DNA of 64,000 nt from Terriglobia bacterium (lineage in GTDB: Bacteria; Acidobacteriota; Terriglobia; Acidiferrales; UBA7541). The number at the start of each line of letters is the position of its first letter. The stretch's first letter is position 1. Made by a program: the position numbers and the translations under genes. The stretch covers positions 186,001 through 250,000 of the forward strand of contig JAIQFB010000010.1 in the NCBI GenBank assembly GCA_020073485.1, written 5' to 3'. Of the stretch, positions 37,060 to 51,769 are shown piece after piece. The notes under the pieces are model-generated. The model was not told the origin of the DNA and searched no databases. It saw nothing but the letters and a program-made list of their open reading frames with translations.

Positions 37060-37173
37060 GATTTCCTCCCGATTGCGCATTGCAAATCGGTTTCTATTCG
37101 CGCATCATATTGTTTCTGCGCGCAGGGGTTTGCCGATTTCGCTCCGCATGAACGGTACGCCGGCAATGGGTGG

Positions 37174-37219
37174 GGGCTCTATTTTTGTGATGTGTTTTTT
37201 AGTGGAAGCGTAGAGCCCG
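37174..37219 (+). promoter_or_regulatory. Leader/promoter motif shared with pdaD (upstream of ino1)
   Basis: GGGCTCTA (37174-37181) and its perfect complement TAGAGCCC (37211-37218) bracket a region reading TTTT on the left and AGTGGAAGCG on the right. The same arrangement occurs at 51131-51177 before pdaD. It ends about 54 bases before the ino1 start. It could be an RNA hairpin in the leader or a DNA palindrome bound by a regulator. No -35 box is evident here. Confidence 0.5.
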
Positions 37220-37272
37220 CGTTCAGTAAGTTCCTTGCTCCACCAGAATTCAGGAAGACAGGAGAAACACGA

Positions 37273-38586
37273 ATGCGTAAGTCTGCAGGCATTGCTCTGC
37301 CAAAGGGAAAACTTGGAGTGCTCACCGTGGGAATGGGGGCCGTGGCGACGACCTTCATGGCGGGCGTGGACCTGGTGCGCCGCAAGAAAGCTCATCCGGT
37401 CGGATCGCTGACGCAACTGGGAACAATCCGCTTGGGAAAGCGGACCGAAGCGCGCGCCCCGGCCATCAAGGATTTTGTGCCGCTGGAAAAACTGGAAAAC
37501 ATCGTTTTCGGCGGCTGGGATATTTTTCCCGCGAGCGCCTATGAAGCGGCCAAGAACGCCGCGGTGCTCAGTTCCGAGCATCTGGCTGAAGCAAAACCAT
37601 TTCTTAGCAAGATTCGCCCGATGAAGGCCGCCTTCGACCAGAACTACGTCAAGAAGCTGACCGGCACGCACGTGAAGAAGGGTCGCAACAAGTACGACCT
37701 CGCGATGCAGATACGCGACGACATCCACAAGTTTCAGAAGAAGAACAAGGTTTCCCGCACCGTGGTCATCTGGTGCGGTTCGACGGAAATTTTCCTGAAG
37801 CAGCACGCCGTCTACGAAACGCCCGAAAAATTCGTGGCCGCGATGAAGGAGAATCACCCGGCCATCGCTCCCTCGATGCTGTACGCCTACGCGGCGATCA
37901 CCATGGGAATTCCGTTCGCCAACGGCGCGCCGAATTTGACCGTCGACGTCCCGGCGCTGACGGAACTCGCCAAGCAGCACGGCGTGCCGATTTGCGGCAA
38001 GGATTTCAAGACCGGACAGACGCTGCTGAAGACCATCCTGGCTCCTGGCTTCAAGGCCCGCCTGCTGGGCATGAACGGCTGGTTCTCGACCAATATTCTC
38101 GGCAATCGCGACGGCGAAGTACTCGACGATCCGGAATCGTTCAAGACCAAGGAAGAATCGAAACTCGGCGTGCTGGAATATATCCTGCAGCCGAAGCTCT
38201 ATCCCGATCTCTACGGCCACATTCACCACAAGGTCCGCATCAATTACTATCCGCCGCGCGGAGACAACAAAGAAGGATGGGACAACATCGATATTTTCGG
38301 TTGGCTGGGCTACCCGATGCAGATCAAGGTGGATTTCCTGTGCCGCGATTCGATCCTGGCGGCGCCGATTGTCCTCGATCTGGTGCTCTTCCTCGATCTC
38401 GCCAAGCGCGCGGGAATGCGCGGCATTCAGGAATGGCTGAGTTTCTATTTCAAGTCGCCGATGTGCGCCCCGGAGCTGTATCCGGAGCACGACCTGTTCA
38501 TTCAGTCGATGAAACTGAAGAACACGTTGCGGTGGATGATGGGCGAGGATTTGATCACGCATTTGGGGCAGGAATATTACGATTAA
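37273..38586 (+). CDS. ino1: Inositol-3-phosphate synthase
   Basis: A 437-residue NAD-dependent enzyme that converts glucose-6-phosphate to 1L-myo-inositol-1-phosphate, for inositol lipids or compatible solutes. The N-terminal Rossmann motif is 'GKLGVLTVGMGAVATTFMAG'. Family blocks include 'FGGWDIFPASAYEAAKNA', 'FANGAPNLTVDVPALTELA', 'GKDFKTGQTLLKTILAPG' (catalytic Lys residues) and 'IDIFGWLGYPMQIKVDF'. I chose ATG 37273, preceded by GGAG 8 bases upstream, over a 27-residue extension. It has its own leader, with a motif shared with pdaD. The following icd gene is 191 bases away. Confidence 0.93.
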   Translation: MRKSAGIALPKGKLGVLTVGMGAVATTFMAGVDLVRRKKAHPVGSLTQLGTIRLGKRTEARAPAIKDFVPLEKLENIVFGGWDIFPASAYEAAKNAAVLSSEHLAEAKPFLSKIRPMKAAFDQNYVKKLTGTHVKKGRNKYDLAMQIRDDIHKFQKKNKVSRTVVIWCGSTEIFLKQHAVYETPEKFVAAMKENHPAIAPSMLYAYAAITMGIPFANGAPNLTVDVPALTELAKQHGVPICGKDFKTGQTLLKTILAPGFKARLLGMNGWFSTNILGNRDGEVLDDPESFKTKEESKLGVLEYILQPKLYPDLYGHIHHKVRINYYPPRGDNKEGWDNIDIFGWLGYPMQIKVDFLCRDSILAAPIVLDLVLFLDLAKRAGMRGIQEWLSFYFKSPMCAPELYPEHDLFIQSMKLKNTLRWMMGEDLITHLGQEYYD

Positions 38587-51053: not shown

Positions 51054-51111
51054 TTGACACTGCGGGGTGTTCTTGTTACTTTTTCGCTCGCGCAATTTTT
51101 CACGCGAGTTC

Positions 51112-51140
51112 TTGACTCAGTCTCGGGTGCGGGCTCTACT
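51112..51140 (+). promoter_or_regulatory. Promoter candidate for pdaD
   Basis: TTGACT (51112-51117), a 17-base spacer and TCTACT (51135-51140). The -10 overlaps the left arm of the shared motif at 51131, which matters for whether that motif acts as RNA or DNA. Confidence 0.45.
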
Positions 51141-51177
51141 TTTACGCTGAACGATTCAAGTGAAGCGTGGAGCCCGC
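51130..51177 (+). promoter_or_regulatory. Leader/promoter motif shared with ino1 (upstream of pdaD)
   Basis: CGGGCTCTAC (51130-51139) and GTGGAGCCCG (51167-51176) pair with one G-U wobble. Between them the left flank reads TTTT and the right flank AGTGAAGC, as in the ino1 copy at 37174-37219. It ends about 35 bases before ATG 51212. Confidence 0.5.
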
Positions 51178-51211
51178 CGGAATAAAGGAGCCACCGCTTC
51201 TCGGCACCCTC

Positions 51212-51769
51212 ATGGCTTTCGTCGCGAAAAAGATTTTTCTGACCAAGGGCGTAGGAAAGCATCGGGAGCGGCTTTCGAGTTTTGAATTGGCGTTGCGCAG
51301 CGCGGGAATCGCGGCGTGCAACATCGTGCGTGTCTCCTCCATTTTTCCTCCCAACTGCAAATTGATCTCGCGCAGCGAAGGACTCAAGCACATCAAGCCG
51401 GGCCAGGTGGCCTTCACCGTCATCAGCGAGAATTCCACGCGCGAAGCGCACCGCTTGATCGCCGCGGGCATCGGCCTCGCACTTCCCGCCGACAAATCCA
51501 TGTACGGCTACCTCTCCGAGCATCACTCCTTCGGCGAGACCGAGGAAGTCGCGGGCGAATACACCGAAGAGCTTGCCGCCGAAATGCTGGCCACGACGTT
51601 GAATGTGGAATTTGATCCGGATTTGTCCTGGGACGAGAAAAAAGAGGTCTACCGCATTTCCAACAAGATTGTCCGCACCATGAACATCACGCAGTCCGCC
51701 GTCGGCGATAAGCGCGGGCTGTGGACTACGGTTCTTGCCGCCGCCATCATGATTGGCGAAGACGACTAA
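51212..51769 (+). CDS. pdaD: Pyruvoyl-dependent arginine decarboxylase
   Basis: A 185-residue proenzyme that decarboxylates arginine to agmatine. It cleaves itself at a Ser in 'IVRVSSIFPPNCK' (about residues 38-50) to make the pyruvoyl group. Family blocks: 'FVAKKIFLTKGVGKHRERLSSFELALRSAGI', shown here as two halves, 'NIVRVSSIFPP', 'VISENSTREAHRLIAAGIGLA' and 'AEEMLATT'-like 'AAEMLATTLNVEFD'. ATG 51212 is used. A GTG at 51167 would extend it by 15 residues and the ribosome-binding site is poor for both. It is followed, after a small ORF, by aguB and aguA, which complete the route to putrescine. Confidence 0.92.
   Translation: MAFVAKKIFLTKGVGKHRERLSSFELALRSAGIAACNIVRVSSIFPPNCKLISRSEGLKHIKPGQVAFTVISENSTREAHRLIAAGIGLALPADKSMYGYLSEHHSFGETEEVAGEYTEELAAEMLATTLNVEFDPDLSWDEKKEVYRISNKIVRTMNITQSAVGDKRGLWTTVLAAAIMIGEDD

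Follow-up and report, generated by a model that had tools for sequence, protein, structure and literature searches.

The hairpins that precede pdaD and ino1 in the window (the whole 64-kb stretch of DNA that we analysed) are two copies of a repeat present in high copy across the genome. We are fairly confident that this sequence, here called the TACTTG repeat, belongs among the non-autonomous mobile palindromes of the REP/MITE kind. It lies mostly in sense orientation in leaders and intercistronic gaps and would be spread in trans.

The initial annotation had described a stem-loop before each of the two genes, and both were found where it placed them, including the single wobble at pdaD. There, GGGCTCTAC (51131-51139) pairs with GTGGAGCCC (51167-51175) through one U.G wobble, followed by GC, and the start codon at 51212 comes 34 nt later. 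At ino1, GGGCTCTA (37174-37181) pairs with TAGAGCCC (37211-37218), and the start codon at 37273 comes 52 nt later. Pfam matches upheld the names given to both genes. As a description of the motif, the annotation was right about the two copies and incomplete in that the motif is a genome-wide repeat, whose unit extends beyond the noted arms to take in an upstream CGGGTGC and an A-rich tail. The features are as follows.

37080 to 37109, forward strand: putative ino1 promoter (TTGCAA-18-ATCATA), which precedes the repeat and is kept in relatives without it.
37167 to 37231, forward strand: ino1-leader repeat, degraded long form (sequence; covariance-model match); left arm 37174-37181, right arm 37211-37220.
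37273 to 38586, forward strand: ino1, myo-inositol-1-phosphate synthase (PF07994 and PF01658).
51054 to 51082, forward strand: inferred pdaD promoter, TTGACA-17-TACTTT, upstream of the repeat and conserved.
51124 to 51188, forward strand: pdaD-leader repeat, long form (sequence; covariance-model match).
Parts of the pdaD repeat, forward strand: head CGGGTGC, 51124-51130; left arm, 51129-51139; right arm, 51167-51177; A-rich tail to 51188.
51212 to 51769, forward strand: pdaD, pyruvoyl-dependent arginine decarboxylase (PF01862, E=3e-59).

The covariance model matched the pdaD copy, which holds a nested hairpin in the loop between its arms, with 45.7 bits in the window (51123-51188, E=4.3e-14) and the ino1 copy with 23.8 bits (E=5.3e-6). 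RNA folding revealed that both copies are more stable than their shuffles (z=-3.8 for pdaD and -2.9 for ino1). The pattern GGGCTCN{20,40}GAGCCCGC matched four times in the window, one match being the pdaD copy read in reverse and another an unrelated sequence. Since only 0.07 matches were expected per shuffled window, the likeness of the two hairpins is not due to chance. Rfam returned no match at or above gathering score anywhere in the window and, at a permissive threshold around the ino1 copy, just one sub-threshold CRISPR-DR match. Before pdaD (51187-51212 and orthologs), a GGAGG-like sequence kept across genera lies about 23 nt from the ATG, an unusually long spacing for a Shine-Dalgarno sequence.

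The repeat unit is about 34 bp long and consists of the head CGGGTGC, an 8-bp stem, the fixed loop TACTTG and an A-rich tail, which is GCCGGAAAAAAGT in G000, the genome that contains the window. The consensus ends are nCGGGTGC and GCC..AAAAAG. Most copies have this short form, while those in the window are of a long form with TTACGCTGAACGCTTCAAGTGAAGCG-type sequence within the loop; other long forms carry different nested hairpins at the same loop position. Head-to-tail arrays are common, with a short-short period of 33-34 bp in 28 of 40 array pairs.

Around the constant TACTTG loop, the stem varies in pairs, both at its base (GC/GC, CT/AG, GT/AC, CC/GG) and at its top (CTC/GAG, CTG/CAG, CTT/AAG). 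Among 62 distinct copies, chosen for diversity and found with a pattern that included the inner stem, 96.6% of cells were paired and 47 cells carried double changes, compared to 11.9 in shuffles; pairing collapsed in slid controls. The outermost two pairs, which lay outside the search pattern, vary GC/CG/AU and CG/UA, and the choice of C or G at the innermost pair was free on either side. A fixed loop that is asymmetric argues that the hairpin is recognised in single-stranded form, be it RNA or DNA, and not as a double-stranded operator. We rejected a terminator reading from the sequence: on the coding strand, the tail is rich in A instead of T.

The initial annotation had suggested a covariance search of related genomes, in which the lack of further copies would point to chance. 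This search recovered more than 100 copies in several genomes, so the chance reading fails. In G000 (5.05 Mb), there were 56 exact matches of GGGCTCTACTTN{0,30}GGAGCCC and none of a reversed control pattern, and a covariance model built from the 62 copies gave 100 matches at E<=0.1 in 1.55 Mb. By this model, and as a lower bound, three genomes of one genus (G000, G004 and G005) and G061, from a different genus of the family, each contain more than 100 copies. Congeners G001-G003 contain 9-17 copies each, and the remaining family genomes 0-3; among the latter, three further members of the G061 genus have 0, 0 and 2. The copy-rich records are Candidatus Acidiferrum and Acidobacteria/Terriglobia MAGs. 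None of the 296 other Acidobacteriota genomes searched contained the repeat, and GenBank phages and plasmids gave no convincing match. In the sequences searched, the repeat occurs in a few soil acidobacteria of a single family, Candidatus Acidiferrum and certain relatives, and in phage-like genomes.

One such genome was binned with G000. From its sequence, this 34.7-kb contig (C8; L169, L170) looks like a novel untailed phage genome. It carries about 17 copies, mostly upstream of starts, and encodes a DnaB-like helicase, a putative P-loop ATPase, a transglutaminase-like protein and a possible lysozyme. No tail genes were seen among its genes, which have almost no Pfam or PHROG matches. A fold predicted without an alignment for one candidate phage structural protein was too uncertain to use (pLDDT 32). 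A viral relative of the contig (IMGVR_UViG_3300050821_014220; L352, L354) shares one site at which the element is kept but has three paired changes in its stem; elsewhere among the shared sites, the element has been gained or lost. On metagenome viral contigs, copies found with a strict pattern lie mostly 15-25 nt before an ATG; a looser pattern gave mostly chance matches.

Comparison of orthologous sites revealed that the repeat moves. Among 83 pairs of sites from different genomes, at least 28 lacked any element, and the length differences between orthologs cluster at 31-34 bp (one unit), 53-55 bp (the long form) and 65-68 bp (two units). The clearest sister-species pairs show a clean insertion of 32-34 bp, which often separates a stop codon from the Shine-Dalgarno-like sequence after it, as in GGCTTAA|AGGAG compared with GGCGTAA-GGGTGC..hairpin..GCCAGAAT-AGGAG. 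It is these clean empty sites between sister species, one unit apart, that imply movement. No target-site duplication was evident at the insertion sites compared.

We considered RAYT-type Y1 transposases as the mobiliser and rejected them, as the repeat did not flank any of the Y1_Tnp loci that we inspected in 12 genomes. Y1/RAYT transposases are found in repeat-bearing and repeat-free genomes alike, and the number of Y1 genes does not track copy number. The copy that lies about 430-540 bp from a Y1 gene (L029/L394) is part of a 16S leader; an Acido-Lenti-1 RNA (RF01687) lies between a Y1 transposase gene and the 16S rRNA leader (L029:1291-1335). Two RAYTs of G000 carry hairpins of their own. 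RAYT-like Y1 transposase genes at L030, L031 and L403 stand beside their own hairpins (such as CCGCACCCTTG...CAAGGGTGCGG), which are unrelated to the TACTTG repeat. Other palindromic repeat families were also present in 1.55 Mb of G000, with about 50 copies of the CACAGG-CTGAAG-CCTGTG type and about 20 of the ACAGGC-ACTCTT-GCCTGT type.

We determined placement relative to genes at 197 independent loci, drawn from G000, from related MAGs and from viral contigs. Because the gene caller was simple and home-made, some of the assigned contexts are wrong. In codirectional gaps, 84 loci pointed along the genes and 25 the other way (p=1e-8), and divergent gaps held 42 loci while convergent gaps held 9; loci outside these classes lay within called genes or at record ends. 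Of the 84 sense loci, 27 start 0-3 nt past the upstream stop codon, compared to 7.3 expected. Exact copies were more strongly oriented (84:21) than diverged copies (21:15, p=0.015), which could reflect functional retention, while covariance-model score, as a test of age or decay, did not differ with orientation (p=0.19). No tRNA genes were found as hidden targets of the copies that point against genes. Of 261 copies, 22 lay inside called genes. One 33-bp copy within a coding sequence (G000:C31:148549-148566, L199) is in frame by its length and lacking in the ortholog (L125).

Genes downstream of copies are functionally mixed and, by codon bias, not clearly highly expressed (p=0.08). The 19 kb around the ribosomal protein operons hold eight copies, including one in the rpsS leader, and one copy lies about 60-65 nt before the 5′ end of 16S rRNA in both G000 and G005.

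At both loci of the window, the conserved putative promoters lie upstream of the repeat. TTGACA and a TTGTTACTTTT-type element upstream of pdaD are kept across the family genomes compared, whether or not the repeat is present. Given conserved promoters upstream of both copies, the left arms should be transcribed. The pdaD repeat is present in G000 (long form), G005 (short form, one mismatch) and G004 (decayed), and missing from G001, G002, G003 and every other genus examined. At ino1, G000 has one worn long copy and G005 a short and a long copy, while G001 and G003 have none. This patchiness below conserved promoters indicates that both window copies are lineage-specific insertions inside leaders that should be transcribed. 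Comparison of the orthologous leaders identifies them as recent arrivals, downstream of promoters that relatives without the element also have.

These data separate two parts of the proposal that the motif is a small RNA element in the leader. Its location and structure stand, based on the covarying stem with its fixed asymmetric loop and on the upstream promoters. That it is a regulatory element shared by pdaD and ino1 is not supported, as both copies are mobile insertions particular to their lineage and absent there in G001 and G003. The promoter candidate TTGACT...TCTACT, which had been thought to favour a DNA site at pdaD, is not supported and looks like an accident of inserted sequence: its -10 sits in the inserted repeat, reads CCTGCT in the G005 ortholog and is missing from relatives that keep the upstream promoter.

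A model that fits these data is that a trans-acting enzyme, reading the hairpin as single-stranded nucleic acid, would spread the repeat; dependence on an enzyme supplied in trans fits what is seen of this short mobile palindrome. Insertion, or its survival, would be favoured in the untranslated stretch that runs from a stop codon or promoter to the ribosome-binding site. An inserted copy would then be transcribed and fold into a hairpin immediately before the ribosome-binding site; its effect on expression would probably be modest. The bias in orientation and towards leaders has three possible sources: copies may enter the displaced single strands of transcribed DNA, harmful insertions may be removed, or copies may bring a benefit. 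The data at pdaD and ino1, whose relatives do without the element, can be explained without such a benefit.

A less probable explanation, which we consider unlikely, is that the hairpin is the cis-regulatory leader RNA of a regulon, read by a host or phage RNA-binding protein or by RNA polymerase, and that copies are kept for their function. HK022 put RNA is an example of a leader RNA that acts on RNA polymerase itself. The sense orientation of copies in leaders, the fixed asymmetric loop on a covarying stem, the copies in ribosomal protein operons and before 16S rRNA in two species, the position 15-25 nt before starts of most viral-contig copies, and the phage site that keeps its element despite three double changes in the stem are all consistent with such a regulon. 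However, copy number is patchy and empty sites are frequent between sister species, pdaD and ino1 of close relatives manage without the element, 25 of 109 codirectional loci point against the genes, a few copies lie inside ORFs, and the downstream genes share neither a function nor clear high expression.

It is also conceivable, at rather long odds, that the repeat combines mobility with a function, as a portable, self-spreading leader RNA whose UACUUG hairpin would be recognised on the transcript, perhaps by RNA polymerase, a ribosome-associated factor or an RNA-binding protein, and reused by cell and phages as an expression module. If so, one such module would be common to rRNA, ribosomal protein and phage operons.

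The alternative raised in the initial annotation, a palindromic DNA operator for a dimeric transcription factor, is very improbable. The arms do show dyad symmetry, and the pdaD copy overlaps the TTGACT...TCTACT match. However, the conserved centre TACTTG is asymmetric and orientation strongly biased, paired substitutions give the arms different sequences, the conserved promoters end before the repeat and so do not overlap it, and copies occur inside operons, directly past stop codons. Chance similarity, which having just two copies in the window might suggest, can be set aside given the 0.07 matches expected per window and the more than 100 copies in the genome.

Short bacterial palindromic repeats are usually seen as 3′-end residents moved by RAYTs. 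The TACTTG repeat resembles REPs in being a non-autonomous palindrome of 20-40 bp with more than 100 copies, intergenic, stop-adjacent and patchy, with a covarying stem. REP, REPIN and BIME elements are associated with RAYT (TnpA-REP) transposases and fall into GTAG and CGTC families (PMC3733652; REPINs, PMC3116915). The TACTTG repeat has no GTAG (GTRG) or CGTC tag at either consensus end, and it does not flank the Y1 transposase genes inspected. Flanking of the cognate RAYT is true of many GTAG families and not of CGTC families (PMC3733652). While REPs reportedly favour convergent and unidirectional 3′ regions (PMC3733652), the TACTTG repeat is oriented and favours divergent gaps and 5′ leaders over convergent gaps (42 vs 9; 84:25). 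Its arrays run head-to-tail, whereas neighbouring units face opposite ways in many REP families. The missing tag, the lack of RAYT linkage and the opposite gap preference make it a REP-like variant rather than a member of a REP family.

Two other systems resemble it in position. The SAS of Cluster K mycobacteriophages are short repeats in one orientation just upstream of phage start codons, and the ESAS are inverted repeats (PMC3203893). The likeness lies in the position before phage starts and the single orientation, and is positional only: SAS has GGGATAGGAGCCC immediately before phage start codons, a sequence different from the TACTTG consensus. SAS is asymmetric, phage-confined and essentially absent from the host, whereas the TACTTG hairpin occurs in host and phage-like genomes, covaries and shows empty sites. 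The TAACTGA direct repeats of marine Beggiatoaceae stand in tandem before starts and have a suggested translational role (PMC4679880). Like the TACTTG repeat, they occur in ribosomal protein operons and are patchy across lineages. In contrast, they are described as heptamer direct repeats with no hairpin and no demonstrated insertion sites.

Fungal mitochondrial GC clusters and double-hairpin elements, which are short mobile non-coding palindromes with nested second hairpins, are also comparable, in a different genome and host. They are not known to be oriented to gene starts. What is unusual in the TACTTG repeat is its sense placement in 5′ leaders and a sequence common to host and phage-like genomes. 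Identical leader structures before two genes need not imply a common regulon. The many orthologous pairs with and without the repeat are natural material for testing the effect of a hairpin before the ribosome-binding site, and may help in finding a new mobilising enzyme.
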